Source of the DNA: Owenia fusiformis
Lineage: Eukaryota; Annelida; Polychaeta; Sabellida; Oweniidae
Direction: 5' to 3'
Length of the DNA: 64,000 nt
Assembly (NCBI GenBank): GCA_903813345.2
Contig: CAIIXF020000003.1
Coordinates: forward strand, 6,163,815 to 6,227,814
Both the position numbers and the translations under genes were made by a program. The notes beneath the pieces are model-generated. The model saw nothing but the letters and a program-made list of their open reading frames with translations, searched no databases and was not told where the DNA came from. Position 1 is the first letter of the stretch; each line of letters opens with the position of its first letter. This document shows positions 1 through 47,140 of this stretch, one piece after another.

Positions 1-3000
1 AAGCTCAATCCATTTGATTTCTTCATGTTTAGCTTGATTTGTTGTATTTGATGGTAATATTTGTGTTAGTTCTCTTTCATTTAACTGAACACTTTCTGTT
101 TCAAAACACTGTCTCTTTTGCTTGGTAAAATTCAGACCCATTCTTTTCAACTCACTATTAACATGAATATTTTGCATTTCATGTTCCAGTTCATACTCAT
201 CTTCAGATGTGTCTGTTGAAGTGTCATAATAATCATCATCATTGTTATCATCATCATTGTCACTATCACTAAGACTTTTATCATCATCATCATCATCATC
301 ATGTTTTGTGTCTTGACAATGTACCATTTTTATGTGAGCTTTTAGTTTCTGATCTCTGTTGAATGCTTTTGCACATATGAGGCAAGTGTATTGGAGGGTC
401 TGAGCAGTATTGTCATCAAGTTTATTTGCTGCACCATCAATGTCACCATGAGTGTTGTTTTCTTTTGTTTTATCTACATGATGTGCTTCATGCCTAAGGA
501 TCATCTGGTTTGAATTACATGATTCATCTTTCCATTTCCTTTCAAAGCCACCTGGCTTGATTTCAGTTAGATCTTTGAGGTTTGTATTGTTACTATCTTC
601 AACATTTTCAATACATATTTGAATGTCAGTCATTGAGTTTGGAATGTGCAAAGTTTCATATGTCTGACTATCTGTTTCATCTATATTAATTCCAGTTACA
701 TCTTTGAGGTTGATGTTACCATTATATTTCTCTTCTTTGATACATATTGAGTCGCAACTCATTAAGTCTGGAATGTTCGTAGTATAGGTTGTCTGACTGT
801 TTGTTTTGTCTATACTACTTGTAGTTACATCTTTGAGGTTGATGTTACTATTATATTTCTCTTCTTTGATACATATTGAGTCGCAACTCATTAAGTCTGG
901 AATGTTCGTAGTATAGGTTGTCTGACTGTTTGTTTTGTCTATACTACTTGTAGTTACATCTTTGAGGTTGATGTTACTATTATATTTCTCTTCTTTGATA
1001 CATATTGAGTCGCAACTCATTAAGTCTGGAATGTTCGTAGTATAGGTTGTCTGACTGTTTGTTTTGTCTATACTACTTGAAGTTACATCTTTGAGGTTGA
1101 TGTTACTATTATATTTCTCTTCTTTGATACACATTGAGTTGTAACTCAGTAAGTCTGAAATGTTCGTGGTGTTGGTTGTCTGACTGTTTGTTTTGTCTAT
1201 AGTACTTGTAGTTACATCTTTGAGGTTGATGTTACTATTATATTTCTCTTCTTTGATACACATTGAGTCGTAACTCAGTAAGTCTGGAATGTTCGTTGTA
1301 TACGTTGTCTGACTGTTTGTTTTGTCTATACTACTCGTAGTTACATCTTTGAGGTTGATGTTACTATTATATTTCTCTTCTTTGATACACATTGAGTCGT
1401 AACTCAGTAAGTCTGAAATGTTTGTGGTATTGGTTGTCTGACTGTTTGTTTTGTCTAAACTACTTGTAGTTACATCTTTAAGGTTGATGTTATCATTATA
1501 CTTCTCTTCTTTGAGATCAACACTGATTTCATTTAGATCTTCGAGGTTTGTGCTACTATCTTCATCATACTTAATACACATTTGAATGTCTTTAATTGAG
1601 TTTGGAATGTTACTAGCTTTGGGTATCTGGTAGTCTGTTTTTGCAGTAAGATCTTTGAGGTTGAAATTACTATTGTTTTCCTCTTCTTTGATACATATTG
1701 GAATGTCACCCACTGAGTCTGGAATGTTTGAAGTGTAAGATGTCTGAATTTTTGTTTTGTCAGTACTGTTTGTGGTTACATCTTTGAGGTTGATGTTACC
1801 ATTAAATTTCTCTTTTTTGATATACATTGAGTCGGAACTCATTAAGTCTGAAATGTTTGTTGCATCGGATGTCTGACTGTCTGTTATGTCACAAATGATT
1901 TCAATTCCATTTTTCAGGTTGATGTTACAATTATCTTCCTCTTCACTGATAAACATTGGGCTATAACTCATTAAATCTGAAATGTTTGTTGCATCGGATG
2001 TCTGACTGTCTGTTTTGTCAAAATTGATTGCATTTCCATCTTTCAGGTTGATGTTACAATTATCTTCCTCTTCACTGATAAACATTGGGCTATAACTCAT
2101 TAAATCTGAAATGTTTGTTGCATCGGATGTCTGACTGTCTGTTTTGTCAAAAATGATTTCATTTCCATCTTTCAGGTTGATGTTACAATTATCTTCCTCT
2201 TCACTGATAAACATTGGGCTATAACTCATTAAATCTGAAATGTTTGTTGCATCGGATGTCTGACTGTCTGTTTTGTCAAAAATGATTTCATTTCCATCTT
2301 TCAGGTTGATGTCACTTTTGTCTTCCTCTTCTTTGATACATATTGGAATGTCACCCATTCTGTCAGGAATGTTTGTATCATCAGATGTCTGATAGTCTGT
2401 TTTGTCAATACTGCTTGTACATACATCTTTGAGGTTGATGTCACTTTTGTCTTCTTCTTGGATACATATTGGAATGTATGGAATATTTGTAGTGATGGAT
2501 GTCTTATTGTCTGTTTTGGCTTTAGTCTTTTCACCAGTTAGCAGATCACCTTTTACTCCTTTAATGCTGTAATCCACAAACAGGTCATTCTTAATTGCAT
2601 TTATTTCACTAATGTTCTCCTTATTAGGATTTCTGTTTTTTGACTGACATTCAATACCGCATGTCTCACTTGTAGTATTTGAGAATATATCTGCTGAATG
2701 TGGTTCACTTTTAACATGTTTGATAAATGAGGTACCACTCTCTTCTTTCATGATCATGCAGGGTTTGTATGTTTCATCTATTATGTAACTCTCCGTTAAT
2801 GAGTTGTCACAGGGTTCATTTGTTGGTCTTCCTTTAGTAAAAGTATCAAACTTTATATTTGATAAGTGTATGGTGAATATATTTCCTCCTGATTTTGCAT
2901 TGTACTTTGCTATTTTGTCCAAGGCCTCAATACGATCAAGAGATACATATGGAACTTTCCCATTGCTGATTAGAGTCACTGGTTCAGGTGTTGTTGTAGG

Positions 3001-3105
3001 TGTAAGGTTGTGCTCATCTTTATCCTGTTCAGTGGTTTTATGCATGAGAACAGATTGTAGTTCATTCCTTGTTTGTGCTGCTACATGTATGTCTTCAACA
3101 TCCAT
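1..3105 (-). CDS. C2H2 zinc-finger protein with 43-residue acidic repeats, partial (3' end outside window)
   Basis: One uninterrupted minus-strand frame runs from an ATG at 3105-3103 to the window edge (about 1035 codons, no stop). The ATG lies in CACCATGG, a strong Kozak context, four bases inside an exon whose acceptor TTATTTCAG ends at 3110. Order: about 170 N-terminal residues without a recognised domain; about 16 repeats of 43 residues (roughly 2560 to 560); a C2H2 finger at about 390-310 (CLIC, then HIKMVH); a run of seven Asp (about 300-280) and an acidic Ser/Asp segment. Many repeats contain I-K-E-E, which fits the SUMO consensus (hydrophobic-K-x-E). A nuclear DNA-binding role is inferred from the finger; more fingers probably follow beyond position 1. 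No orthologue recognised. Confidence 0.85.
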   Translation of the reverse strand, partial: MDVEDIHVAAQTRNELQSVLMHKTTEQDKDEHNLTPTTTPEPVTLISNGKVPYVSLDRIEALDKIAKYNAKSGGNIFTIHLSNIKFDTFTKGRPTNEPCDNSLTESYIIDETYKPCMIMKEESGTSFIKHVKSEPHSADIFSNTTSETCGIECQSKNRNPNKENISEINAIKNDLFVDYSIKGVKGDLLTGEKTKAKTDNKTSITTNIPYIPICIQEEDKSDINLKDVCTSSIDKTDYQTSDDTNIPDRMGDIPICIKEEEDKSDINLKDGNEIIFDKTDSQTSDATNISDLMSYSPMFISEEEDNCNINLKDGNEIIFDKTDSQTSDATNISDLMSYSPMFISEEEDNCNINLKDGNAINFDKTDSQTSDATNISDLMSYSPMFISEEEDNCNINLKNGIEIICDITDSQTSDATNISDLMSSDSMYIKKEKFNGNINLKDVTTNSTDKTKIQTSYTSNIPDSVGDIPICIKEEENNSNFNLKDLTAKTDYQIPKASNIPNSIKDIQMCIKYDEDSSTNLEDLNEISVDLKEEKYNDNINLKDVTTSSLDKTNSQTTNTTNISDLLSYDSMCIKEEKYNSNINLKDVTTSSIDKTNSQTTYTTNIPDLLSYDSMCIKEEKYNSNINLKDVTTSTIDKTNSQTTNTTNISDLLSYNSMCIKEEKYNSNINLKDVTSSSIDKTNSQTTYTTNIPDLMSCDSICIKEEKYNSNINLKDVTTSSIDKTNSQTTYTTNIPDLMSCDSICIKEEKYNSNINLKDVTTSSIDKTNSQTTYTTNIPDLMSCDSICIKEEKYNGNINLKDVTGINIDETDSQTYETLHIPNSMTDIQICIENVEDSNNTNLKDLTEIKPGGFERKWKDESCNSNQMILRHEAHHVDKTKENNTHGDIDGAANKLDDNTAQTLQYTCLICAKAFNRDQKLKAHIKMVHCQDTKHDDDDDDDKSLSDSDNDDDNNDDDYYDTSTDTSEDEYELEHEMQNIHVNSELKRMGLNFTKQKRQCFETESVQLNERELTQILPSNTTNQAKHEEIKWIEL
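560..2560 (-). repeat. In-frame 129-bp coding tandem repeat
   Basis: The repeat landmark recurs at 695, 824, 953, 1082, 1211, 1340 and 1469, and again at 1915, 2044, 2173 and 2302, each exactly 129 bp apart. More diverged units lie between and on both sides. Each unit encodes 43 residues ending in N-L-K-D and holding a K-E-E or S-E-E-E acidic core. All units stay in frame, so copy-number change would not break the protein. The two near-identical blocks (695-1469 and 1915-2302) differ from each other, which suggests two rounds of amplification. Confidence 0.92.
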
Positions 3106-3109
3106 GGTG

Positions 3110-4559
3110 CTGAAATAACATGTGATTTGTTATTCACTTCAAAGTATATAAAATGCATTCAAAAATCTACTAAAAATGGTTTAACAAATGTTATTGGGAC
3201 AGCTATAGAAAATTTGTCAATATTGATCTGAAAGAAACATGTGAAGTGAACAAACAATAAACAGATGTGTGATAAAAAATAACTTCTCATACTTTTTTGC
3301 ATGTGACATTTTTATGCTTGCTAACACAATTATAACAGGGTTTTTAACAGTACCCTGTAATACTCTTTCTGAAGATTACCTTTAATATTAGTTTGTCAGA
3401 CATCATATTTTAATTGTGTTTATGAAGCGTCAGTTTGACGGAAAGCTTTGTAATGAAGGAATTTTGTGCCACTGTAACCATTTTTGTTAGAAAAATTTCG
3501 TTGGTAAAAAGGCAGTAGACAAGAAAATTCAGCAAAAATAGTAAGTTAAATCTCAAGAAAGCTTCTTTGACAGTGTAACAGGTGGTACCCTAAAATATTA
3601 AGCGATAATAGCTACAATGGTTTTGAAAATAGTGTTACAAAATGGCCTTTTGTTATTTGATTACTTTTCAAACTGCACATCTATTTTTAGTTCTTCCACT
3701 CATTGTCCTGTTTTTCTGTTGGTCAGTAATTTGAGAGATGAGATGTGTGGAATTTTATGTGGCCATATAATTCCCTCAAGGGGTATAAAAGTCTCTGTCT
3801 GATGTCAAAGGAGGGAGCTATCGAATTATCTTGTCTAGGCCTATTCAGTTATTCAAACTCATCCAAGGATAAAAAAAATTCAAGATGATAAAATGTAAGC
3901 ATAATACTTTCATTATTGTGAACAAGTCATAGAGTGGTTCATCATGTTTGACATGTTGTGCAATGTCAGAAACCATACATAAAGGAATTGTTTGATAGAT
4001 GTTGGCACTTTTGTTAAGCAGAACATATCATTAATGATAAAATATTTAGCACTTTTTACAATTCACAAATAATTGCTAGGCGCCTTTGCCAAACATAACA
4101 TCTCATTTGATAAAATGTTTAGCATTTTTACAATCCACCGAATAGGTATTTACCCTCCAGGATCCCCATCATGCATTTTATTCGTCATTTATTCTCTAAA
4201 CTAATGTAATTTAGGCCCTTGAGATTAGATGTACAACTAATTTACTGTTGTTCAGATTTATTGATCATTCAATAAAGAATTAAACCTGTGCCATTAGTAT
4301 TTTAGAACTAGTTTCCACATATGATGTTTTTGACAAGGTCCTGAACCATTCTAAAATTTTATTCATTTTCAATTTATTCAATTTTGAGATAAAGAAAAGC
4401 ATGAGCAAAAAAATAGTACTAATGTTTCATTAATTGTAAAGGGCTATGACATGGTCAGAATCTTTTCAGATTATTGATTTGTTAAATTTGTAATATTAAA
4501 CACTATGGTACTTTTAGAATAATAATTCTCCTATCCATGACTATAGATAGAGAGTGCAC
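3110..4559. other. Upstream intron or flank of the zinc-finger gene, no gene seen
   Basis: Begins with the splice acceptor of the zinc-finger coding exon (minus strand, CAG at 3112-3110), so at least part of it is intron. The rest is AT-rich. The short ORF at 3617-3802 has no recognisable domain. No upstream leader exon could be placed. Confidence 0.5.
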
Positions 4560-12240: not shown

Positions 12241-15200
12241 ATTGCCTGTTCAATGAGACAAAGTGTAACAATAGTAATGTCTGCATCCCAATTTACAAGA
12301 AATGTGACCACATCGGGGACTGTCCATTTATGGATGATGAATTTGGATGTCGTAAGTTGTATTTTAGAAGTAATAACAATACCTTATTAAAAGTCTATGA
12401 GAGAATCAGTTCTAAAATTCAAGTGGCCATAAGTAGGCTTTTGTACTATTTAGTCAGTTCTATCAGATCATCTTCTCCAGCAGTTTAGGGGTTAAATTAC
12501 AAAAGTTCAAATTGTCACACAGAAAGGCATATGATTACTTCCTGCGAAAGCTATTTGGATTTTGATATAATAGCTTTCCCACGGAGCATTTGGACAGCTC
12601 AATGATCGTGACCTTTGAAATCGAATTAAGTCGATCCGCGGCTTACTTTTGGTCTCTAACTGTGTCTTACATCAGTATCATCAATCCGTGTAAGTATTGG
12701 AGCGCTGGAGTACTTCTTTTTCGATCAAGACTTGTAATTGTTAGACGAATGAATCGTTTTACTGCCAAATTCCAATATGGCGGTTTCTGCTCGGACATTT
12801 TCGTAAATCTCCGGAGGTTGTCCGAACCTAACTAATTCTCAAAATTCATTTCGTTCGTTGCGTATCTCGCACCTAGCAAACCGCCATATTGGAAATAGGT
12901 CTGTAAAACTTTAACTCGATGAACAATTTACAAGTCTTGATCGAAAAAGAAGTACTCCAGCGCTCCAATACTTACACGGATTGATGATACTGATGTAAGA
13001 CACAGTTAGAGACCAAAAGTAAGCCGCGGATCGACTTAATTCGATTTCAAAGGTCACGATTGATCAGCTGTTCACTTCTCCGTTTGAGAGCCATAAGTTT
13101 CAAAATCTAACATGGCTCTCGAAGTGAGTAAGCATATGACATACACGTATATTTTTCGAAAGTCATTGACAAACATTAAAGACACTATTAGGTGGAATAC
13201 AACCGAGTTTTTGGTCCATTGAAAATACACCACAGTGGACATGCAAACCACACAACCAGAGAGTAAAATCTTGTGTCAAATAGGACCCCAGGAATTGACC
13301 TCTGTATAGTGGAAATATTTAGATAAATTAAACCCTAGGCAAATAGCCTTGGGCTTACTTGCCTTGTAAAAGCCCAAATACAAATATCTCAATATTTTCT
13401 CAAAATTGTATAGTATAAAATTTTTATTCAAAAATTGGAAATCGGAGGTAGTAGAATCTGATCTATAGGGGGTGACAAAATTTCAAGCAACATGTATAAT
13501 TGACCTACCAATCTATTCCTTACAATATCAAATACAATATCTCCAAAAAGATTCACAATATGTTATAAATTGGTGAAGTTATTAATGATTCAAAGCGCAA
13601 AAATGGGTGAAAAATGTTTAAATTCTCCCAAATAATAAGAATAGTAACCATTCTTATAGAACAATAATACATTATTGTAAAAATCTTTAGTTTTCCTGGA
13701 ATAAAGTATGCACTTTTGTGATTTGTAGAAAATAGACATGACAAGGAATGACAAGAGCCAAAAATATTCTAAAATTAAAACAATTTTTTGTTTAGCCTGC
13801 TCGCTATACTAGTATCTGATTCTCTCTTTAACTCGTACAGTACAGGGTGCCAATAAAATCTCTTTACACTTTACAAAAAGACTATGTATTGTTATTGGCT
13901 TTATATGGACACCCTGTATATTCTAATGTGTTTATTGTATCATTGTAGCCTGTAGATCTGATGAGTTCCAGTGTGGGAAAGATGGTGTATGTATACAGAA
14001 CCAGTCCAGGTGTGATGGTGTGATGGATTGTATTGGTGGAGAAGATGAAAATGGATGTGGTAAGAACTTTATTATTATTCTACAGTACAGTACAAATACT
14101 GAAGTTTAAATAGGGATATGGAGAAGTTATTCATTTATCAATCTGTATTTGTCAAGGGTGATAACATAATATTAAAACCTTGTGTACTGTATTCAGGCCC
14201 GTATCCAAGATTTGCCAAGGGCGGTTCAGTTTTCTAAAATTTCCAGGGGGGTTCACATTTGACAATTTTGTCCCAAATATGGCTAAAATCACTTGAGAAG
14301 TGCTCAAAATGGTGAAAAACTGCATGATTGTGAACGAATTTTTGGCCAGGAGGGGTTTGCCTGTCGCTCGAACCCTGCGAGACCCCCCCCTGGCTACGGG
14401 CCTGGTATTTAGTTCAAATCTTATAGTCTTATTGACATGACAATCAGAGCCTTTGCTTGTATGAATTCCCAATATGGTCGTTTAATTCAAAATGGCCACC
14501 ATTTTACATATATGATGAATGTGGTTCAATGTGGGATTGCTGAATTCAAGTGTGTAGTTCAATGTACTTTACTTTAGGTCAGTGTGGAAGTGCTGAATTG
14601 AAGTGTGTAGTTCAATGTACTTTACTTTAGCTCAGTGTAGGAGTGCTGAATTCAAAGTGTGTAGTTCAATGTACTTTACTTTAGCTCAGTGTAGGAGTGC
14701 TGAATTCAAAGTGTGTAGTTCAATGTACTTTACTTTAGCTCAGTGTGGGAGTGCTGAATTCAAGTGTGTAGTTCAATGTACTTTACTTTAGCTCAGTGTA
14801 GGAGTGCTGAATTCAAAGTGTGTAGTTCAATGTACTTTACTTTAGGTCAGTGTGGGAGTGCTGAATTCAAGTGTGTAATTCAATGTACTTTACTTTAGGT
14901 CACTGTGGGAGTGCTGAATACAAAGTGTGTAGTTCAATGTACTTTACTTTAGCTCAGTGTGGGAGTGCTGAATTCAAAGTGTGTAGTTCAATGTACTTTA
15001 CTTTTGGTCAGTGTGGGAGTGCTGAATTCAAAGTGTGTAGTTCAATGTACTCTACTTTTGGTCAGTGTGGGAGTGCTGAATTCAAAGTGTGTAGTTCAAT
15101 GTACTTTACTTTTGGTCAGTGTGGGAGTGCTGAATTCAAAGTGTGTAGTTCAATGTACTTTATTTTTAGTCAGTGTGGGAGTGCTGAATTCAAGTGTGTA

Positions 15201-18200
15201 GTTCAATGTACTTTACTTTAGGTCACTGTGGGAGTGCTGAATACAAAGTGTGTAGTTCAATGTACTTTACTTTAGCTCAGTGTGGGAGTGCTGAATTCAA
15301 AGTGTGTAGTTCAATGTACTTTACTTTTGGTCAGTGTGGGAGTGCTGAATTCAAAGTGTGTAGTTCAATGTACTTTACTTTTGGTCAGTGTGGGAGTGCT
15401 GAATTAAAGTGTGTAGTTCAATGTATTTTACTTTAGGTCAGTGTGGGATTGCTGAATTCAAGTGTGTTGTTCAATGTATTTTACTTTAGGTCAGTGTGGG
15501 AGTGCTGAATTCAAGTGTGTAATTCAATGTACTTTACTTTAGGTCAGTGTGGGAGTGCTGAATTCAAGTGTGTAGTTCAATGTACTTTACTTTAGGTCAG
15601 TGTTGGAGTGCTGAATTCAAGTGTGTAGTTCAATGTACTTTACTTTAGATGTTGGAGTGCTGAATTCAAGTGTGTTGTTCAATGTATTTTACTTTAGCTC
15701 AGTGTGGGAGTGCTGAATTCAAGTGTGTAGTTCAATGTATTTTACTTTAGGTCAGTGTGGGAGTGCTGAATTCAAGTGTGTAGTTCAATGTATTTTACTT
15801 TAGGTCAGTGTTGAGAATTCAAGTATAGGAATTAATGAATGTAATGTTTCACATATTCTTAACTTTAGGTCAGTGTGGGAGTGGAAAGTTCAAGTGCAGG
15901 AATTATGAGTGCATAGCAGAAGCTGGAAGGTGTGATGGCATCAAGCAATGCAAAGACGAATCAGATGAACAGGAATGTGGTAAGTTTTACTCTATTTTTG
16001 GATTTAATTGATTTCATTGTATGTAGGGGTATGTACAGGGTAGTCAAAAAATGGAAACTCTGCATTTTCCTCATGCTTGTATCTTTGTTATTTTAAAAAA
16101 TTACTCCCTGATATTTCACACATTTGTACATCATACATTTTTCTACCATTTTATGACCATCAGACGGATAGACACAATTTTACAGCACTTTGAATAACAT
16201 GCTTCAGTTTTGGCCATCATCGCGCTGTAGGCAAACCTACACAGTTGTCAATGACCCAAATGCATCCCTCAGCAGGTATGGCCTGAATAACCATGGATAA
16301 CTTTTGAGGTTCGCAATTGTCTTGAGGTCATTCTCATACACTCTATCTCTGCCATATCCCCACAGGTAGGGACATTTTGAACAACGTGTGCAGGTTTCCT
16401 TACAGCACAATAGTGGCCACTGAGGCATGCTCTTTAAAGTGCTGTAACATTGTGATTATCTGATGGTCATGAAATATAATATTAGGCTGTTAGGAATATG
16501 AATGATGTACTTATGTGTAAAATATCAGGGAGTTATTTCCTAAAATGACAAAGATATGAGGAAAATAGTGTTAGGGTTTCCATATTTTGACCATCCTGTA
16601 CTTTTTATGTCACCACCAGAAGTGATGACATATTGTTATTATGTTATTTAGCCAGTATTTAGTGTTGTTGGCTTCTGTAACATATGGTTTTTGGCAGTCA
16701 GCATATGTAACAAATGGCAGGTGGTGACATTTTGCATTGTCTTGTAACATTAGTTTACTATCAAAGATGCATGGTATTATATGCTGAAAGCTATTCTTAA
16801 TTGTTTAATGTGTAAATGACCTAACTTCCTAATGACATCTACATTGGCAACACATGGACTGATTTTGAATGTTTTAAATACCATTACTAGAGATATCACG
16901 GAACAAAAAACATCGGAACGGTTCGGTTCGGTTCATTTTGCTCGGAACGGAACAATTTCGGAACAGTTCGGAACAGAGTCACTGCGTGTATTAGATTAAA
17001 ATAATTTGATCATCAAGGTCTATTTGGTAGTGAAAAGCTCTTCAAAACTCTTCAAAGAGAAGAAGTAGAAAGAATGGACCTCTTTTGATACAAAATATTG
17101 AAAATAAAATGCTGTTTTGTGGAGATTCAAGGGCCAGAAGTTGTGAAAGGGTAAAATGTTCTTGTTCCGGAACTGAACCGAAATTCTTAATATTTCTTCC
17201 ATGTTCCGTTCCGAAGGCATAATTCCGCGGATCGGAACAAAATTGGGTATCCGTGACACCTCTAACCATTACATGTATTATAAAAGCAAAGCATTTGAGT
17301 ATTAAATATAGGAATTTTGATAAAATATTTAATTTCCATGCTGGAAATTGTCTCCAAAATAAATCCTGAAAACTTCAGTAAGAATGGTTTTTCCATTTCA
17401 AATATAGAGTAAAAACATGACCGTATCATCGAACCTGTCTTGGGTACTATACCTATACTGAACAATGTACATCAAGACCCATATATTTTTTTTACATCCA
17501 ATGCTGTTCGTAAAACATGTTTGTTACAAAAACAAAAAACTCTTCATTGAGTTTCAAAAGAAAGAATAATTGATTTAAAATTGTGATTGTTATTTCACTA
17601 ATGAAATAATATGATACTTGCTTTAAGCCATTGAATAAACTAATGCTGTACTTGCATAAATCTAAACTCGTGAATTCTGGTATCATGGGAAGTATGCTTG
17701 AGTTAGGTAAAATCATTGGCATTTGATATTTGTGATCACAACTGCGCGGAGTGCAACTAGTCTAGAGTCGGAGGGTCAAATAATGCACTTATTTTATTTT
17801 CACCAACCAATTGGTATTGATTCATTTTGGAAAAGTGTCCGCATTTTATGTGAAGATGTTTAATAGTTTTGCCAAACTTCAATTGGTGCTTCAACTACAG
17901 CTGCTGGATGCTTCAACTGGGAAATTGCAATAACTTTTACTTCTCTATGTGAAGCTTGGAGACTTGTTATAATATTTTGCTGATCTAACAAAAAGGTAAG
18001 CTTTTTAGTTTACATAATTAAATTGCATAACTTATGTAAATGTGGCTTATGGTAACTTTCATTTAAGTTGTCTCAAGCTTTGCAGATAACATTTTTATTG
18101 CTTTATTTTACAAAAGAAAAGTAAATTGTAAATATAGCTCGTCATTATGCAATATTTGTATTGGCCCCTACATGTATATCTGTGATGTTGCATAGAATAA

Positions 18201-20430
18201 ACTGCATTGGTAATCTTAACACCAAAGCAATATTGTGGCTGCATACATATGCAAAAACAACTGGGTTGTAACTTGTCACTGTAGACACTGCAAGTAAATT
18301 AATGGATCACTGAATATATGTAAGGAAGAGGATCCCTGTATGCAAAATTCCATGACATTTATTATGTTCTAGTGAGACTTATTGGTGCTGAAAGGAGCCA
18401 GGGTAGACTAGAGGCATACAAAGGAGGATGGCTCCCAGTGTGCAGTTCCAACTGGAATAAAGAGGACAGCAGTGATGTGTGTAGCATGCTGGGATATGGT
18501 ACAATGAACAAAACAAGTTCAATATCCGAGTCATCACCTAGATACCTAATTGTCCAAGAACGCTTTGGTAACATGTCAGATTTAAAGGTAAGTGCCTCTT
18601 CTGAACTATGATGGAACTTTTGTTACTTTTAGAAAATACAGCTCCTGGAAACCATAAAATTGCTGCACCCCACAAAAAATTAATGAACTGAATTATGTGC
18701 CTGGAAGAATTACATATGAAATATTGTAGCCTACCATATCACATTTTAGAATTATTCCTCATTTTCTTGAGAAAGTCCAATGTCATATAGATGTTTTGAA
18801 TTGTTATGCTTTCAGTTTGCTAGAACTTGTAGAGGAAAATATGTGGTACATCTTTCCTGCAACTTGGCAGAATGTGGCACTAAAAGTAAAAACAACCCAT
18901 TGGTGCCATTAATTGTTGGTGGGAATCAAGCTCAGTCAGGTTGATAAAATTTATCATTTCATTGTAAAATGGAAAAATTGACAATTAGTATTTGTTATTT
19001 TAATTATTATCAAGTTGTTATTGTTTTATATGTGATTAAATTGATATACTGTAATAATGTTTGTTTTTAAAAAATAAGTAATGGAAATTGTAAATTTACT
19101 TTTAAGGTGATTGGCCATGGCAAGTCGGCCTAGCATATTTAGGGTTTGCACATTTTTGTGGTGGAGTACTGGTTGCGGAGGAATGGGTGCTTACAGCAGG
19201 ACATTGTATTGATGTTTTGTAAGTGTCTCATAATTGCCTACTCCAAAAAGAACAGCAATTTAATGATGAACATGTTATCATTATAAATCATCCCTTTTTT
19301 ATTTACAATTCAATCCAATGAATTTTTTAAACCACCAACAGTGTTGGGAATTGATGTTGACTTTGTGACACTTTTTTACCCACCCTCATTACTTTAATCT
19401 TAGTGCTGAAATACATGTGATATTAGCACATAACTAAGTTTGGCCATAGTTCTTACATAATGAATATTGAAACAAATTGAAATTGTATTGAAAGACTGTA
19501 ATTGTTTCAGGAGGTCACTTGGTAGATTATCAAGAACATATATATTAGCTGGTGCACATGTTAGGGGTGCTAAAAGGCAATGGTCACCAGTCTCTGCTTC
19601 TTTTATGCACCCTGTATATGTACCAAGGACAGGAATTGCTCAAACAATGGATATTGGTTTGATCAGATTGGCAAGGAAGTTCAGAATCACAGATTATGTT
19701 CGCCCAGTATGCTTACCTTCGAAGGACCATGATTTTAGGGATGATGATTCCCTAGAGTGTTACATGTCTGGCTTCGGTTATACCAAACCACATGGTGAGT
19801 ATTTTTCATTTGAAATTAAGACTCAAAAAATATGAATGAAGTTGATAATTATAATAGGAAAAATAAAATGATGGTAAGAGGCCAAGAATATTAATATATA
19901 TTAAAGCATTATTCATGTGTGCAAATACTGTAGAATAAGAAGATAATGTCCATTTTCAGATATGAATGTATTTTTATCATTAAACTTTTATTTGTACAGG
20001 GCCTGGAGCACAGATTTTAGGGTACGCTAAGATGGTCATACAGCCAAATTGTAGCTGGGCATATGAAGGATGGCTTGATACTCGCAATTTATTATGTGCT
20101 GGTTATGACACAGGGCACATCTCCACCTGCCGTGTAAGTTCATACATCATCATATTGTATATTCTATCCAAAAATCAAAAGAGGCAAATTACTTTATCAA
20201 TAATTATTCCATAAGTTGTATGTTGTCCATGTAATTAAATTACTGTTTTGTTTCAGGGGGATAGTGGTGGCCCACTAATGTGTAGGTCACATGACAACAA
20301 ATGGACTGTAGCTGGAATTTCATCCTTCTCGCTGACCACTTGCATAAGCCAGTATGGGTATCCATCAGCCTTCACAGAAGTTGCTAAAGCTGTACAATGG
20401 ATTGAAAAAACAATACAAGAAAACAGATAG
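12241..20430 (+). CDS. LDLa(x3)-SRCR-trypsin modular serine protease, cassette 1 (5' exons not found)
   Basis: Exons: 12241-12351, 13949-14059, 15869-15979 (three LDLa modules, each 111 nt, phase 1 at both ends); 18373-18587 and 18816-18939 (SRCR); 19107-19218, 19511-19794, 20000-20133 and 20257-20430 (chymotrypsin-fold protease, TAG stop). From the first complete codon they total 458 codons in one frame. Each LDLa has six Cys and the acidic D-E-x-x-C end. Catalytic His is in T-A-G-H-C, Asp in M-D-I-G-L-I-R-L, Ser in G-D-S-G-G-P. The activation site I-V-G-G follows Leu, not Arg/Lys. By the family's numbering residue 189 is Ser, so trypsin specificity is not expected. The signal or membrane-anchor exon was not found. 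The architecture recalls enteropeptidase/TMPRSS-type proteases. AATAAA at 20575. Confidence 0.88.
12540..13127. mobile_element. Foldback MITE in protease intron
   Basis: Almost perfect inverted arms of about 190 bp: 12592-12780 pairs with about 12885-13071 (for example GATCCGCGGCTTAC and GTAAGCCGCGGATC; CCAATATGGCGGTTT and AAACCGCCATATTGG). Weaker outer arms extend to about 12540 and 13127. The loop is about 105 bp. GC content is higher than in the flanks. Lies in the intron between the first two LDLa exons. The 81-codon ORF across the left arm is not a gene. Confidence 0.8.
13841..13918. mobile_element. 78-bp mini Tc1/mariner-type MITE
   Basis: TA + CAGGGTGCC at the left and GGACACCCTG + TA at the right, with a further AATAAAA/TTTATAT pairing inside. 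The size and TA ends fit a Tc1/mariner-derived miniature element. It ends about 30 bp before the second LDLa exon. Confidence 0.6.
14194..14404. mobile_element. 211-bp MITE with CAGGCCCGTA ends
   Basis: Starts CAGGCCCGTATCC and ends GGCTACGGGCCTG; GTATT directly flanks both ends (14189-14193 and 14405-14409). The same terminus occurs alone at 63055. A long C-run precedes the right end. The 106-codon ORF across it is incidental. Confidence 0.75.
14530..15835 (+). repeat. 53/54-bp minisatellite built from the LDLa-3 splice acceptor
   Basis: About 24 units of 53 or 54 bp fill the intron before the third LDLa exon. Each unit carries TTTACTTTAGGTCAGTGTGG followed by GAGTGCTGAATTCAAGTG. The genuine exon boundary at 15868/15869 reads AACTTTAG then GTCAGTGTGGGAGTGG and AAGTTCAAGTG. 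The array is therefore an amplified copy of the acceptor plus the first ~30 coding bases. In the 54-bp units the frame stays open (18 residues each, with Q-C-G-S-A-E-F-K), which explains the long ORFs here. They are not independent genes. Confidence 0.9.
16034..16600 (-). mobile_element. Internally deleted Tc1/mariner element with transposase remnant
   Basis: TA + CAGGGTAGTCAAAAAATGG at the left, CCATATTTTGACCATCCTG + TA at the right. The arms are inverted over about 170 bp. On the minus strand (16428-16237) a fragment reads L-W-G-Y, R-V-Y-E-N, T-I-A-N-L-K, the pattern seen near the C-terminus of mariner transposases (LWGY...RVY.N...T...LK). The DDE catalytic region is missing, so the copy is non-autonomous. 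Lies in the intron between LDLa-3 and SRCR exon 1. Confidence 0.8.
16606..16745 (+). repeat. Dispersed GTCACCAC/GTGGTGAC repeat, copy 1 (sense to protease gene)
   Basis: TGTCACCACCAGAAGTGATG, ACATATTGTTA ... CTGTAACA ... CAAATGGCAGGTGGTGAC, ATTTTGCAT. Same family as copies at 34198, 41457, 47960, 53613, 54328 and 60440. A tail-only fragment (TTGGTGACATTTTGTCATTG) lies near 11492 in the same orientation. Confidence 0.75.
16888..17264. mobile_element. 377-bp hAT-type MITE with perfect 8-bp target duplication
   Basis: Termini TAGAGATATCACGGA and TCCGTGACACCTCTA, flanked by ACCATTAC on both sides (16880-16887 and 17265-17272). Subterminal CGGAAC/GTTCCG words are repeated in both orientations. 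An 8-bp duplication with TAGAG ends is characteristic of hAT elements. No transposase. Confidence 0.88.
17273..18372. other. Protease intron, no gene seen
   Basis: AT-rich intron ending in TTATGTTCTAG at the SRCR exon. The minus-strand ORFs at 17262-17722 show no domain. Confidence 0.6.
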
Positions 20431-22891: not shown

Positions 22892-25800
22892 TGAGACTGA
22901 ACATTATAAATCAAGAAGGAGACAAGCGAGTGGAGGTTTACAAGAACCAAGCATGGCTGCCAGTCTGTTCTAATACATGGGGAACAGAGCACAGCCAAGC
23001 AATATGTACATATCTGGGACAAGGGTAAGATGCTATTAATATGTGATTGCGTGTTGATACCTGTATATGAGTTGAAATTCTGAAAGATCATGGATTTAAT
23101 ATTTAAATTGAATGCATGCCGATAAAATTTCATATTCATTTCCAAGTATGAATTATGTATTAGCTGATGAAATCTTCAATTATGATGTCATAACTGATTG
23201 TTATATTGTCATTGAACGTGGAATTTAATGAAATAATAATATCCTATTAATTTTAAATATTAAAAGACTACAATATAACCCAAAGTTGCCTCACAGAATC
23301 TTTTTGAAGACCTTAAAACATTGTTATTTGACTAATGTTGACAATGGAACATCATCACATATATCAATATGAGTAGCATCAACCCATTTTCATAATTTAA
23401 CATCATCACATATATCAATATGAGTAGCATCAACCCATTGTCATCACCTTTTTAGTAATGCTGCGTCTACGACTGGTTCCTTCTACACAACTTCAAAGTT
23501 CATCCAGATATCTTCAAGTTCTGACTCAACAGAGCTGATTGCTAAGTTTAAAGTAGCAGATACTTGTCCTGATGACCAGGTTGTTCATCTTAGTTGCGCT
23601 AAGGCACATTGTGGAGTCTCTGAGAAGAGTAACCCATTGGTGCCTCTTATAATTGGGGGTGGATATGCAAAGCCAGGTACCTGTCACTTTCAAATACTGA
23701 ACATTTTAAATACTGCATATATTACGAGTTTTATACTTAAGAATGTACTAGTGTCAAGGATTAAATAATGAGGCTCTTTTACTAACTTTTTTGTTTTTAC
23801 AACATTTATGTTTTGTTAGTTCTGATTTAAATGTAGATATCCTCATCAACTGAAGTGTTGGGTGAAATCTCTGCATAATGTCCATATAATTTGTATAATG
23901 TGAGGTTTATGTTTTTAGGAAGGTGGCCTTGGCAATTGTCATTAAGTTATTACACCAGTACCAATTACTTTTGCGGTGCAGTCCTCATAGATAAACAGTG
24001 GGCCTTAACTGCGGGGCATTGTATTAGAGCCATGTGAGTAGCATCTTGTTTTACCATAGTATATTGTATTATTCTCCTTACTTTATTCTAATTGAACTTT
24101 GAATCACTAGTGAATCTTGACAACTATCACTGATCTTTTGAAAAATAATATAATCAAAATGGTTGAAGGAAACATGGTCAATCGTATACACACCCCTTGA
24201 AATTTTATCTGGATTTGACATAACTATCTTATATGTTTTAGGGAAACATACTCGTTTGGTAAAGTGCGAACTATGATTCACACTGGACAGACTGTGAGAG
24301 GTCAATACGAGCAGGTGCTCTACATCAGTGATTATTGGCATCACCCTGACCTTTACCTTGCCTCATTCGCACCACCAGAACATGACTTGACCCTCATTAG
24401 ATTTACAAGGCCAGTTACATACACGGAGCGAACATATCCCATATGTTTACCTGAACTTGAGCAACAGTTTGCATCTAGTCTGGAATGTTATACAACTGGA
24501 TTTGGCTACAAGAAACCAGCTGGTGAGGACTTTAAAAACAACAAATTTTAAATTATATATATGGGACTTTTAGCAAGAAACTTGGATAGGAAGGTGACTT
24601 TTAATGGTGATCGAAATAATAAAAGAAGGGGATTGTGTATTAAAATAGAGAGGTACTTTCATAGGGGAGAATTACTACTAAAAGGAAGGGAGAGGCACAA
24701 TTCAGTGGGAGAACTGCTATTAAAGTGGGATGTGCTAAGTGATAGCTTTAACAGAGAGGAGTCTTACCAAACAGAAATTATAAAGGGGAGGGGTACTATG
24801 AAAGGGAATTGATACCATTAAAGGGGATCAGTGCTATTAAAGAGGTACTATTAACAGGAAGATGAAACCGTTAAAAGGGGAGGTAACATTAAAGAAAAAT
24901 GATAACATTAGAGTGGGGTTATTAAAAGGGAGAGGTACTTTTAGAGGGAAATGATACCATTAAAGGGAAATGTACTTTAAGAGGGAAATGATACCATTAA
25001 AGGGAAGTGGGGCTATCAAAAGGGAGAGGGGAGACATACTATCAAAGGGACATGAAACTGTTAGACGGGAAGTGATAAAATTAAAGGGAAGAGAGACAAA
25101 TAACTGGGAGAAGTTCTAATAAAGGGCCAGTAACTTTTAAATGGGAGGAGCACTATTAAAGAGAGAGTTGGTATTAATAGAGGGGTTCTTATTAAGAGAG
25201 AGGTTTAAGATAAATATTGTGAGTCAGATTTTGAAAACCAGATCATAGGGCACTTTTTATTAAATGAGTCCTCTTTTAGGCTCAAATGAAAAAAATAATT
25301 ATATTATATTATATCATATTACATTATATTGTATTATATTATTATACGAGGGTTGTCCCAGAAGTAATGCACTATATGCTCTAGCTTTATCAATAATTGA
25401 TATTTTTCCATGAAATCTTCAGTAAATGTTCCTTAGAGACATTTTGATTATTCTACAAATTTTCATGTTGACTGATAAAACTATATTAATGTTATAATAA
25501 AATCAAGTTGGTGAGTTTGGGTAGGGCGGGGCAGGTTTTACAGTCACGTCAAAAGGAATAAAAAATTGAAAATATGAAATAATTAATCAACAAATACCAT
25601 TTTGTGTAGCTATAAGAAGTATGCTAAAAAATACATTCTAAGATACTAAATTACTATGAGCACATCATAGATTTAATGGATGTATATTGCACAGTGTCCC
25701 ATTTCACATTTTCTCAAAATATTGCCACTTGCATGCTATGTACTTTTGATGCCTGTCAGGTCAAACACTCTTGGCAATTTCTTCCACTGTGACTTGTGGA

Positions 25801-36200: not shown

Positions 36201-39200
36201 TGTTTATGAGTTTTCTGTTGAATATAGCCAATATACCAGAAGAATATTAGTTTCATAATTGTTAAGTTTTCCTCTATGTTCTGAGGTTTGATTTCTCCAA
36301 TTAAATACATACAGGTCAGACCGACCTATATGTTTAATCATACAATCACTTTAAAACAATACATGTATTTTGCCATTGGGCACTGTAAGATGCAACAGGT
36401 TAGATCACAAACATTTTCAAAAGTAGTTCTGAAAATCTTGTTCTTCATAGATATTTTTTCTTTAAGAATTCTTCAATTGCAAGACAACTGATTTGATTGT
36501 AGGGGGAGGAGATGACAACTCTCACCCAGGATTCTGATGAGGATGGTGGGGGTGCTGCAGGGACACCACGCAACAAGGTGATACGGGTCACCCCCAAGAA
36601 GATGCCCCCAGCTAGTACATCTGCACTCATGTGTAATTACTGCAACTACACAAGCCCTAAGAGGTAGGCCATGAATGATTATTTAAATTGTGTTTTTTGT
36701 GTTTATCAACATCTTTATTTGTTCCCATTCAATGAGGGCACTTTCATTTGTTAAACATCCATGATGCTTCGCTACATGACATATTGGACTGAGGAATGGG
36801 AATGGCATGCCAAAGGGGGGACTAGGACATGCTTGAATATCGGTGTGAGGTCGGGTTCGGCCGAGTAAGCGCCTCCTGCTGTATACTCCCCGTCCATATG
36901 AGCTATCATATGGAACACCTGTGGTCTGGTGGTAGACCACATAAACAAGCATTGTTCTAGTGGGACTTAGGTGGACTGGGTCGCCTTTGGGTTCCACTTA
37001 TCTCTTCTTCTGATCCACAGCCATCTGGAGCTGTCTTCTGCTGCTGAGCTGATAGACTTTAAGGCACTCTTGAGCTCCTTGGGTTGCAGTCCTATCTTGG
37101 ATAATAGGGTTCTGACTGATGTTGCTGGAAACCCCCTGCAACCAACTTCGATAGGGAAGACAGATGCGTGCCACCCTCTTGTCTCAGCTTCGTCTTTAAG
37201 GTCTTGATACTTTGTTGCTTTGATCTCGTGTGAAACCTCTAGCCTATCCTCCCATGGGACTGTTAGTTCGATGATGATAATGGTCTTGGTTGAACTGGAA
37301 GTCATAACCATGTCTGGGCGCAGGGTTGTTACGGCCACATTCTGTGGGAAGACTAGTTTCTGATAGAGATCTACCTGGAGTTGCCAATCTGTTGCTTTGG
37401 CTAAAATGCTTGGCTTGGGTTGTGGTTTGGGGGTCTTTGCAGCTTTGGGTTTTCCTTCCCTGATAAATTCTATTTGCTTAGTGATGGAACCTCTATTGGC
37501 AATGCCTCTTTGCTGGTCTATGTACTTAGAGACTTCTTGGAGTACCTTGTTATGTCTCCATGTGAATCTTCCTTCACTCAGGGACTGGGGGCAAGAGCTG
37601 AGGATGTGTCGCAGGTTGCAGCAGTCTCCCTTGCAAAGTGCACACTTGTTTACCTTACTCATATATTGGTTTCCCCTGTATATCTCGTCAGACTGTATTG
37701 TACAGTAAAACCTGACTAATTCAAACACCATTGGAACCTGCCAAAGTGTTTGGATTGGTAGGTTTCACATTTCAAAGTCTTCTTAATATGTGAGTCTATT
37801 AGATATAACAAAATTAGGACTGAGAAAAAGTGTTCATATTCACACCGGAATAGCTTATGGTAAAGTCAGATACCGTTGTCACAAATGGCAGACATAACCG
37901 TCTCTTTAATCACTTGGTCCTCATTTCATGGGATTTTATCGTAGCTAATTCTGTGCATGCATTAAGCTCTTGTGATAATGTATCATATGAAATCCCATTT
38001 TCGATCAAATTGGGTATCTGACTTAACCATTGTCAGGCTATTCCGGGGTGATATTGAGAGGTGTTCTGATATACATGGTTCACTGTATGTCAAAACATGT
38101 AAAAAATGTCATTGCAAGCTATGAATATTTTCAAGGTACCTACTTACACGTCATATGAAGACTCATTCAGACGAGCGTCCCCATAAGTGTTCCATCTGCA
38201 ATAGAGGTTTCAAGACAATTGCTTCATTGCAGAATCATGTGAACACACATACAGGCACACGTCCACATAAATGTAAGGACTGTGAGGCTGCATTCACCAC
38301 CTCAGGAGAACTGGTAAGTCACTTTTGATACACTATGGCCGATTGAGAACTGTTTCCATATGAAGTAGTCATACCTCCATATACAGAGGGAGCTGCATTG
38401 GCTTCTTCGGGAGAACTGGTATGTCATTGTTGATAAAATTGTGTTCTATTGAGGACTGTTTAATAACATCAAAAATGATTGAGATTACAATTGATATATT
38501 GATGGAGAACTATTTAAATATGAATTAGTCCTGCCTCATGTCTCTGTCTCCATTCCCTCTTTTTCACTTCCAGAAGGAGACTGCATTGACCACTTCAGGA
38601 GAAAAATGATAAGCCCTATGGATAATGTCCAGTGCAGTATCAAACAATAAAAAATTCAATTCAATAAAAAATTCTTGTGTTTTATTTTCCAGGTGCGCCA
38701 TACTCGTTACAGACATACATTTGAGAAGCCCCACAAATGTACAGAGTGTGACTACGCTAGTGTTGAACTAAGCAAATTAAAGAGGCATATGAGGTCCCAT
38801 ACAGGTAAATGCATCTTCTATTCAGTTTTATTGCATCATTTTATGCCTTGGTCTATTAAAACTTCAGTATTATACCGAAGAGAGTATGGGGGAAAGATCA
38901 TCTATGGCCAATGTTCTTTGCTTACTCTTTAAAAAACTTGTGGCAAGTATTGACAATGAATGTTTTTCTTTGTTGTTTAAGGAGAGAGGTCCTATGCATA
39001 ATGTACAATTGATATATGATGTAATAAATATATCGTTCATTTCAGGAGAGAGGCCCTATGCTTGTCCTCATTGTTTGTATGCCAGCCCTGACACATTCAA
39101 ACTAAAGCGCCATTTGAGAATACATACTGGCGAGAAACCCTATGAATGTGACATCTGCCATGCTAGGTAAGATATTACTTCTCTCATGATGATCAAAGGC

Positions 39201-42200
39201 AGAATTATATCTTCTAAGGCTTCATCTGATACTATCATATTAGGCTGCAACATTATATATAATCAATGCTTAGAAGATGGAAACAAAAGTTTGGAGCTAC
39301 GAGACTACAACTTTTAAATACAACATTATATTTGTGCTTAAAGGTGTTGTCAACTTGCTAGCTGTTCTGCCAATTATTTTGATCCATTGCTTTAAAAGAT
39401 CATTGTAGAATTATTTTGAATTGGTCCTTTTGAAAATAAATTGTACGATTATTTTGAATTGGTCCTTTTGAAAATAGATTGCACAATTATTTTGAATTGG
39501 TCCTTTTGAAAACAGATTGTACAATTATTTTGAATTGGTCCTTTTAAAATAGATTGTACAATTATTTTGAATTGGTCCTTTTGAAAATAGAATGTACAAT
39601 TATTTTGAATTGGTCATTTTGAAAATAGATTATACAATTATTGCTATGTTCTCCAGGTTCACCCAGAGTAACAGTCTTAAGTCTCACAAGTTGATCCACT
39701 CTGGCAATAAGCCTATATACCAGTGTGAGTTGTGCCCTACAACATGTGGACGCAAGACAGACTTGAAGATTCACGTTCAGAAGCTTCACACCAGTGACGT
39801 ACCCCTGTGCTGCAAGAAATGCAACAAGTCATTCCCTGATAGGTATGTGTTCCATTAGAGATGTTGATTTAGCCAATTATTTGACCATTAGTGTGTTTCG
39901 AAAACAAAGAAAAATCATTTTTCAGACTACGTAAGAGTTTGAATCTTCAGCTTCATTTACACTTAGAATAAGAGACAATTATGACGTTGATCTACCCCCA
40001 ATCAGATTGATATCGTCAGATAATCATGACACTTTCTTTGTATAAGCAGTTGATGTAGAACAGAATCAGGAAAGAACAGATTCGGGAATTTGCCTTTGGA
40101 ATTCAGAATGAATGAATGATTTAGATTATTCATAGCATATAAATAACTTGCAGCAATAACCATATTCCTTTATATTTATTGATTTTGTTTAAATTCCAAT
40201 TGGTAAATAAGTGCCCTTTACAGAAAATTCCAGTAAATATCAGAACATGAGGAGGTTGTTCTAAGTATATTTTCAAAGGCAAATTTAGACAGATCCAACA
40301 ATGATTCCACTCTATGCCAACCATACTATACTCCTAAATTTATAGAATATCTATTAAACCATGATCTCTTAATACACTAGGTACACATACAGACTTCATG
40401 TAAAGGTCCATGATGGGGAGAAATGCTACAAATGTGAACTATGCGCATATGCTGCTCTCTCGCCACGTCATTTGGAGAGCCACATCCTTACGCATACAGG
40501 TCAGTATAAAAGAATGTATATCTAGGTTTATAAGAATTGATATCTAGGTTTATAATGGGGGATGTATTAATGCTGTTAATACTGAAGCAATTTTGTTTGA
40601 TCTGATAGGATAATGTCTTGTTTTATACATTGTGCTATATCAGTTATTTTGGAGGAAAGTAACGTGCCAGAAATCAACATTTTATATAGACTATTAATTA
40701 CACAACACAAATTGTGTCAATCTTTATCATGATGTCACAATTGTAGGTGAGAAACCCTACCAGTGTGAAGAGTGTCAGCAGTGTTTCCGTCAGAAGCAGT
40801 TATTGCGACGTCACAAAAATTTGTACCACACCCCCGACTATGTCCCCCCTACCCCTAAGGAAAAGCAGTTCCAGTGCATGGAGTGTGACAAGGCATTTGC
40901 ACACAAGGGCAATCTGTTGAGGCATGTACAGATGCATGACCCCAATAACCCAGACTTTGGTAAGTCAAAAAATGCATTTAAAGCATGGGAGCATTTATTA
41001 AAGTATACTTAAAGTGCATATGCATTACAAATGAACAACATGCATTCATAAATATTAACTTATTTTTGGTGTTATGTGTGTAGCTTGATGGAATATTATA
41101 TATATTGTATATCCCAAGAGTTATAGTAAATTCCAACTTTTAATAGTTTTAGAGTATTCTATGAACTGTTGTATACTCTAAGCCTGACAGAGTTATAACA
41201 GAGCTATTGTATATTCTATTGTATATTCTAGGCAAGGACCTTGAAGAATCTGAGGGAGAGAATCTAAGTGATGAGGATGAAGAGGAAGAGACTGTTGCTC
41301 AAATCATCAGTCATGATGTAGATGGTGTTCAACAGGTGGAGATAAAGCCAATAAGATCTGAGAGTGAGTACACATGCACTACCATGCTACATTTGAAACT
41401 TCTTATAAGGAAATATTTCACTGAAGTAGAGAACACCTTTATTTGATCTTTTGTTTTGTCACCACAAATAGTCTCTAACTTTTTGTGGATGGTATTTAGT
41501 GGTCAGCGTCTGTAAAAATGTTAGATGGTGACATTTTACATGGTAATGCCTTGTTTAGTAATGTAATTATATATTGTGGTGTGTTAGAGTGAATTTTACC
41601 AAGTTATTTGATAACTCTAAGAACCAACATTGCATGAGCTTTTAAAAGCGGAAGAAAGTTAGTTGTTGCATATGAAGGGTGTATTTTCTATAAATGTATG
41701 ACATCACAAAGTAAGTAATTGACAATTTAAGCTGTGAGTGGCTGGGCTAGTGATTGAACTGTTTCATGCACATTTTTTCACCCAAATTTAAACAACACAT
41801 TTTAACTTCATTTGCAGGTGAAGGTTATGTTGTGATAGAGGTCCCTGCAGAGGCTGGCCAGGTTGTCATGGAGAGTGGACCACAACAAAGCCAGCGTGTA
41901 GTTGAAGTCCCAAGGCAAGTTTCAGAGGCAGGACCTTCAAACTCTAAGATCCTTGACCCTGGACAGTCCTTTGTAGCAAGAGGCTTTAAGGCAAGACGAG
42001 GTAAGTCTAAATGTGTTGATTTGATAATGTGTGTTAGGCCAGAGTTTCTCTTTTTGTTTTTTGGTTTCGTTTTGCTTAGAAGTCAATCCATAGCCTTGGT
42101 AGAGGAAGATTGCTTATATGAATTGAACTTATCATAAGTAAGACTTCTTAGCATCAGATCAATATGCAGTTGATTAAAAATTTCGTCTTCTTTTATAAAT

Positions 42201-45912: not shown

Positions 45913-46090
45913 CCAAAGCATTGAGAATTTTCCATCTTGAAAAAATTTGAATTGGAAGAAAAATACATGTTGCTCTTATCATGTTAGAATCAAAACAAAG
46001 ACCTCGATTCTATGGTTGGTCGAGAAATTCAATAAGAGAACAATCATGTTTGAATCTAAATCACCTTCAAAAATTATAATGAAATATAAA

Positions 46091-47140
46091 CAATGAGCTC
46101 AGGGTAACTATACACTTGTCTGCTGCAGGAGACAATTCTCTTTAGTTAGAGGCTAGTGGACTAAACATTGAGCTCAGGGTAACTATACACTTGTCTGCTG
46201 CAGGAGACAATTCTCTTTAGTTAGAGGCTATTGGACTAAACATTGAGCTCAGGGTAACTATACACTTGTCTGCTGCAGGAGACAATTCTCTTTAGTTAGA
46301 GGCTAGTGGACTAAACATTGAGCTCAGGGTAACTATACACTTGTCTGCTGCAGGAGACAATCTCTTTAGTTAGAGCCTTTTGGACTAAACATTGAGCTCA
46401 GGGTAACTATACACTTGTCTGCTGCAGGAGACAATCTCTTTAGTTAGAGCCTTTTGGACTAAACATTGAGCTCAGGGTAACTATACACTTGTCTGCTTCT
46501 GAAGACAATCTCTTTAGTTAGATCCTGGTGGACTAAACATTGAGCTCAGGGTAACTATACACTTGTCTGCTTCTGAAGACAATCTCTTTAGTTAGAGCCT
46601 GGTGGACTAAACATTGAGCTCAGGGTAACTATACACTTGTCTGCTGCAGGAGACAATTCTCTTTAGTTAGAGGCTAGTGGACTAAACATTGAGCTCAGAG
46701 TAACTATACACTTGTCTGCTGCAGGAGACAATTCTCTTTAGTAAGAGGCTAGTGGACTAAACATTGAGCTCAGGGTAACTATACACTTGTCCGCTGCAGG
46801 AGACAATTCTCTTTAGTTAGAGCCTTTTGGACTAAACATTGAGCTCAGGGTAACTATACACTTGTCTGCTTCTGAAGACAATCTCTTTAGTTAGAGCCTG
46901 GTGGACTAAACATTGAGCTCAGGGTAACTATACACTTGTCTGCTGCAGGAGACAATTCTCTTTAGTTAGAGGCTAGTGGACTAAACATTGAGCTCAGAGT
47001 AACTATACACTTGTCTACTTCTGAAGACGATCTCTTTAGTTAGAGCATGGTGGACTAAACATTGAGCTCAGGGTAACTATACACTTGTCTGCTGAATGAG
47101 ACAATTCTCTTTAGTTAGAGGCTATTCTCTTTAGTTAGAG
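46091..47140. repeat. ~75-bp tandem array in the 3' UTR of the CUB/LDLa gene
   Basis: About 14 units with ATTGAGCTCAGGGTAACTAT, ACACTTGTCTGCTGCAGGAG, ACAATTCTCTTTAGTTAGAG. Two sub-types alternate (GCTGCAGGAG and GCTTCTGAAG). The last partial unit covers the stop codon and final codons of the minus-strand CUB/LDLa gene (47115-47140), so the array either arose from, or now supplies, that coding end. Confidence 0.93.

Follow-up and report, generated by a model that had tools for sequence, protein, structure and literature searches.

A 64-kb window of the genome of the annelid Owenia fusiformis (G000:C3:6163815-6227814; "the window" means this whole stretch of 64,000 nucleotides, from a genome of 498 Mb in 525 contigs) contains an intron that is filled with some 24 copies of its own 3′ splice site. 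The repeated unit spans the end of the intron and the start of the following exon, LDLa exon 3. We read this array as a minisatellite of the type called a "mirage" in amphioxus: it was seeded by duplication of the intron-exon junction, it is removed with the intron, and its copied acceptors are by-products. We give this reading a probability of roughly 0.83.

The array repeats an intron-exon junction

The intron holding the array is 1,809 bases long (14060..15868, + strand). Its donor, GTAAGA at 14060, scores 12.0 bits with the donor matrix described below, and its acceptor is at 15868. An LDLa exon that ends in ENGC lies immediately upstream (13949..14059, +), and LDLa exon 3 follows (15869..15979, +); joined, the two exons match Pfam PF00057 with an E value of 1.4e-18. 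Tandem Repeats Finder placed a 54-bp repeat at 14526-15811, with 24.1 copies and a score of 2180. When cut at the unit ends, the array resolves into 24 head-to-tail units of 49 to 55 bp (14526..15803, +) with the consensus GTCAGTGTGGGAGTGCTGAATTC(A)AAGTGTGTAGTTCAATGTACTTTACTTTAG. The first unit has 52 bp (14526-14577), and 23 more units reach 15803. Counted from 14578 onward, 24 unit lengths include the edge of the array as well: ten of 53 bp, ten of 54 bp, and one each of 55, 52, 49, and 65 bp. The 65-bp element (15804..15868, +) adjoins the true acceptor and is a diverged junction copy that is similar to bases 1 to 43 of exon 3.

The relation of unit to exon is clear in alignment. The part of the unit that runs GTCAGTGTGGGAGTG...TTCAAGTG can be aligned to the opening 28 bases of LDLa exon 3 at a score of 38, compared with a maximum of 25 in 1,000 dinucleotide shuffles. 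The best rival alignments elsewhere in the window, sampled as 111-base pieces every 37 bases, score 23 on one strand and 24 on the other. A dimer of the unit scores 56 against the real junction, and this alignment extends back through CTTTAG into the last 20 intron bases. The unit therefore spans the intron-exon junction, as the unit of a junction minisatellite does. Since exon 3 is a good LDLa domain, it is most likely the source from which the array was copied. The 65-bp edge unit scores 28 over 43 bases against exon 3 and only 20 against the array unit, and it is a separate copy of the junction.

An earlier reading of this DNA, made from sequence only, had proposed that the intron is packed with about 24 copies of its own 3′ splice site and of the start of LDLa exon 3, and the dimer alignment bears this out. 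That reading had named beforehand two outcomes that would speak against it: a lack of resemblance between unit and exon, and an array that belongs to a wider satellite. The resemblance holds. As for the satellite, a search of the 498-Mb genome with the unit, which skips very common words, returned 15 matches, all of them local: 14 in the array, one at the true junction, and none elsewhere. No second copy of the array locus was found in this search. With unit matches confined to the array and its junction, and with the same restriction on very common words, the result speaks against a dispersed satellite family.

The units end in AG in 19 of 24 cases and in TG in the other five. After the 19 AG ends come GT (ten times), C (seven), TC (once), and AT (once), so that AG/GT is found at 10 of the 24 unit ends, and at eight of those ten it reads AG/GTCAGT. 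The sequence-only reading had noted units with a lost acceptor and units with a changed next base. It had taken this as decay of individual decoys, and here the pattern points elsewhere. The five TG ends sit in two runs, of three and two units, partly within a four-unit block (14846..15060, +) that recurs six units downstream (15169-15383). The distances between units six apart show only 1, 0, 0, and 1 differences per unit for the two blocks, and the recurrence is a recent internal duplication. The TG runs and the recurring block together indicate a few mutations that were spread by array turnover. Over spacings of 1 to 11 units, inner units differ at a mean of 3.1 to 4.4 positions. A homogenised interior next to a diverged edge unit is what a mirage is expected to have, and it is what we find here (the edge unit scores 20 against the array unit).

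From this we propose the following history. Tandem duplication would have taken in the last ~20 intron bases together with ~28 bases from the start of the LDLa exon, and the duplicate would then have been amplified and homogenised to ~24 copies by unequal exchange or slippage. The array would normally leave with the intron, which would be spliced at its terminal acceptor (15868). The acceptors carried by the units would be by-products and not a regulated device, and their mistaken use would give an mRNA with a premature stop. Normal splicing in vivo, the mutational mechanism, and copy-number variation between individuals are all three things that we infer. The array is most likely inert.

Use of a copied acceptor would truncate the product

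We scanned 134 AGs, from ~14071 to the true acceptor, for a reading frame that stays open to the end of exon 3. The sole stop-free entry is 15869; none of the 133 upstream AGs has a stop-free path, so use of a decoy is expected to truncate the product. Read from a unit start, the frame likewise ends: the 25 upstream starts tested, those preceded by TG among them, all reach a stop after 3 to 107 codons. The sequence-only reading had suggested that 54-bp units keep the frame and that the array could cause graded variation of the exon start. The 54-bp units are indeed open, but an in-frame entry to a 53-bp unit meets a TAG in that unit. The scan of AGs does not support the proposed gradation. The same reading had also suggested that the array could slow or regulate inclusion of the module; for the amphioxus counterparts, papers describe or infer normal splicing (PMC3087553, PMC3902484).

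Splice signals of the decoys and of the true site

We built acceptor and donor matrices from the LDLa exons of the same genome, on the correct strands. Of 91 LDLa domains, 52 (48 outside the window) passed a 6-bit threshold for the acceptor, and 50 (46 outside) passed a 4-bit threshold for the donor. The 39 domains with no such acceptor were left out; many of them probably lie away from an exon start. Scored over their intronic bases, 18 of 19 AG decoys fall at 4.9 to 5.7 bits, which is the 2nd to 6th percentile of the 48 acceptors outside the window, percentiles that may look too low because the 6-bit cut removes weak real acceptors. The true acceptor at 15868 scores 6.7 bits.

We also compared the context of the AG. 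The next upstream AG is 18 to 25 bases from the decoy AGs and 38 from the true site, though 19 to 38% of the 48 real acceptors have an AG-free zone as short as those of the decoys. We scanned for branch points with a generic matrix. In its plain form the scan gave much the same values for real acceptors and control AGs (medians of 3.01 and 2.96), and with a first-AG rule it told them apart (2.86 versus 0.68). Under this rule, 15 of the 19 decoys score 0.14 to 0.42, against 2.78 for the true site. RNA folding gave no sign of a hairpin device at 15698-15979, since this segment is less stable than its shuffles (z of +2.08; 198 of 200 shuffles fold at least as well).

Several of these measurements weigh against an inert array. 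The true acceptor is itself weak, at the 12th percentile of the 48. The decoy ending at 15169 scores 8.1 bits on intronic bases, higher than the 6.7 bits of the true site, and when three exon bases are added, the decoy with its start at 15698 reaches 8.5 compared with 8.1. Under the first-AG rule, 4 of the 19 decoys score 4.02, again above the 2.78 of the true site. Summed naively, the 19 AG decoys leave the true site with ~10% of use, and the acceptor matrix alone therefore fails to explain correct choice. The matrix scores count against a simple account in which the decoys are too weak.

Known repeats at splice junctions

Repeats of this kind are already known, from amphioxus mirages and from exon-intron junction repeats in human and potato, and the annelid case adds a new lineage on the acceptor side. 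In amphioxus, mirages are tandem repeats across intron-exon junctions, described in Adh3 and in the globin genes BflGb6 and BflGb9; AG/GT is kept in many but not all units, edge units escape homogenisation, length is unstable, and splicing was undisturbed as judged by reverse transcription-PCR (PMC3087553). Further mirages were reported in troponin C and in PGBD5, the latter without mRNA proof (PMC3902484). Like the BflGb6 mirage, the Owenia unit joins the 3′ end of an intron to the 5′ part of an exon, and it shares with amphioxus mirages a diverged edge unit and an AG/GT that is present in many units only (here AG at 19/24 ends and AG/GT at 10/24). It differs in size, with 24 copies of ~54 bp, whereas the two BflGb6 haplotypes have 6 and 3 copies, each of 150-160 bp. 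It also lies in another animal lineage and another gene. In the literature searched, itself covered in part, we met the name "mirage" for junction repeats only for cephalochordates.

A human counterpart is on the donor side. The variable number tandem repeat (VNTR) in intron 18 of ABCA7 has 23.7 copies of a 25-bp unit in the reference, and its first two bases are the donor of exon 18; retention of units shifts the frame of the mRNA, and VNTR length correlates with skipping of exon 19 and lower expression, whereas unit retention itself does not vary with length (PMC5954066). The two arrays have similar copy numbers, both include the exon's own splice site, and use of a unit site in ABCA7 shifts the frame. 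Unlike the ABCA7 VNTR, with its 25-bp donor-side unit and measured effects on splicing and expression, the Owenia array is on the acceptor side.

Other cases are more distant. In human duplicated genes, variable tandem repeats occur at exon-intron boundaries and sometimes activate cryptic splice sites (PMC2812944); these were read as new introns in recent paralogs, whereas our array lies within an existing intron. Human UBC has dual-specific splice sites in its tandem repeats (PMC10809524), and AGGT at some unit boundaries is a point in common. Unlike the Owenia array, the UBC repeats are coding and their sites are used both ways; here the units are intronic, and the donor half departs from native donors. 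In the RdRp gene of potato, an intron was gained through tandem duplication across an intron-exon junction, following the Rogers model (PMC4974935). The Owenia copies are instead inside an existing intron, with no new intron evident, and the stops that all scanned array entries hit before the end of exon 3 speak against exons between the units. The miR-137 VNTR was set aside as a counterpart: its splice sites lie in the pre-miR sequence, and the covered portion of that paper does not mention copies of them within the repeat (PMC6692358). Intron repeats with a predicted extra acceptor have also been described (PMC3045353).

Alternative explanations

The likeliest of the alternatives is a splicing sink: decoys would capture a share of splicing, the premature-stop transcripts would be degraded, and array length would tune the output of the gene. 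We consider this unlikely. It gains from the stops that follow all 133 scanned upstream AGs, from the 19 AG decoys that lie near the true site in score and leave it a naive share of ~10%, and from the ABCA7 VNTR, whose frameshifting unit retention and length-correlated exon 19 skipping and lower expression (PMC5954066) give it a donor-side precedent. That same precedent cuts both ways, as the unit retention seen there was independent of VNTR length (PMC5954066). Normal splicing has been reported or inferred for the amphioxus mirages (PMC3087553, PMC3902484), the next AG lies closer to the decoys than to the true site (18-25 versus 38 bases, although 19-38% of the 48 real acceptors are as short), and 15 of the 19 decoys have no good branch point under the first-AG rule. 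If the sink did operate, each unit would add a chance of unproductive splicing, repeat length would set the output of an LDLa-SRCR-protease gene, and the array would be an acceptor-side mirror of the ABCA7 VNTR.

An error of assembly, with the number or order of units wrong, is quite improbable. Repeat arrays are hard to assemble, and the BflGb6 array seemed aberrantly assembled in the draft amphioxus genome (PMC3087553). In the Owenia array, however, many units differ in both sequence and length, and the diverged copy sits at the exon, as turnover predicts. We see slightly less room still for stepwise removal of the intron, in which the AG/GT at the edges of units would serve as dual-specific or recursive splice sites. 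Such boundaries are there, at 10 of 24 unit ends and in the form AG/GTCAGT at eight, and UBC proves that dual-specific sites can exist in tandem repeats (PMC10809524). A dual-specific site needs a donor half that fits the native consensus, and GTCAGT does not fit. At donor position +3, A is found in 45 and G in one of the 46 LDLa donors from outside the window, and C in none; GTCAGT scores 5.1 bits, under the native 10th percentile of 7.1, though over the lowest native donor at 2.8. Moreover, 14 of the 24 unit ends are not AG/GT, and the shortest of 27 inferred introns is 111 bases long, or two unit lengths. A graded series of in-frame exon starts, each extending the LDLa module, has next to no chance of being the explanation. 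A frame entered at a unit start can run through successive 54-bp units for as many as 107 codons without a stop, but not one of the 133 upstream AGs is stop-free to the end of exon 3, and with a stop after every scanned entry we excluded such starts for the present sequence.

Read as a mirage-type minisatellite, the array offers a clean example on the acceptor side, rich in copies, and the surrounding genome shows local duplication at junctions about as often as at other sites. Nineteen AG-bearing near-copies before one weak true site are a natural test of how a 3′ splice site is chosen, and also of a possible leak into unproductive splicing that depends on repeat length.

Local duplication in the genome background

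We asked how often a sequence has a local copy upstream, counting a score of at least 34 within a search distance of 1,500 bases. Outside the window, two of the 48 LDLa acceptors have such a copy (loci L032 and L020), and in the window two of the five exon starts tried do, including the array exon. For random positions, the counts are 115 of 1,200 in twelve arbitrary 10-kb stretches, 98 of 1,080 and 130 of 1,440 at LDLa loci, and 147 of 1,000 in the window. Local duplication is thus common at random sites of this genome, and junctions are not special targets; copies at junctions would be expected from local duplication in general. At L020, the upstream copy overlaps the start of a neighboring LDLa exon. 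At L032 (G000:C3 near 18.695 Mb), an LDLa acceptor and exon start are copied 93 bp upstream (757-801 versus 850-894), with 42 of 45 bases alike, the AG retained, and CAG changed to AAG; traces of a further copy are visible by eye. This locus is an independent small mirage and a second example of junction copying. On the donor side, 7 of 46 LDLa donors have a downstream copy at a score of at least 34, and the four inspected resemble the ends of neighboring LDLa exons.

We counted tandem arrays with units of at least 20 bp and at least three copies, and found 19 in the 120 kb of arbitrary stretches and 11 in the 64-kb window. Five of the 19 are pieces of one 145-bp satellite, and the window is similar to, or somewhat richer in tandem arrays than, arbitrary stretches. 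Several blocks of the 145-bp satellite occur in one arbitrary 10-kb stretch, L038 1-9852 (G000:C2 at 10.0 Mb). One of the 11 window arrays, at 46087-47124, has 13.9 copies of a 75-bp unit.

Gene context and other features of the window

A hidden Markov model of LDLa built for this analysis found three + strand LDLa domains, with first cysteines at 12243, 13951, and 15874. The earliest (12243..12350, +; domain E value of 1.2e-4) probably belongs to the same gene as the exons that flank the array. Downstream are open stretches with a partial SRCR domain (18324..18608, +; PF00530, E value of 1.1e-9) and a partial trypsin-like domain (19464..19832, +; PF00089, E value of 8.3e-10). From these matches, the LDLa, SRCR, and trypsin-like stretches look like parts of one multidomain protease-like gene. 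After this first pair, 23424-24548 holds a second SRCR-like stretch (weak, 22.0 bits with a cut-off of 27) and a second trypsin-like stretch (E value of 3.8e-8), which suggests duplication of a gene or module in tandem. A scan of the window against Rfam gave no match at the gathering score, and an NCBIfam scan gave no match. For the genome as a whole, 34 exon-level matches to innexin, a GC content of 32-37% in 12 stretches, and three above-threshold matches to Eryth_link_C, the erythrocruorin linker family of annelids, are in line with an annelid; a search for GFP gave 0 matches, a result that carries no weight.

C2H2 zinc-finger exons lie at 38651-41009 on the + strand. By eye they resemble CTCF, but the name is tentative: in PDB, a segment of 61 residues has many zinc-finger proteins as matches, with ZNF568 the best and CTCF included. 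The start of one of them (from 39046), with its acceptor, has one copy 64 bp upstream (38976-38997 versus 39040-39061; 20 of 22 bases, score of 34). The end of another zinc-finger intron is filled by a 38-bp array of 6.4 copies (39402-39642), which stops 14 bases before the exon. Of 20 Sushi-domain loci considered as a second set of exons, 15 fall in one open frame of 2,766 codons, and the set was left out for that reason. On the - strand, an open frame of 1,043 codons (1-3129) contains arrays of 129-bp units, or 43 codons, at 661-2459; they leave the frame unbroken and form a coding minisatellite.

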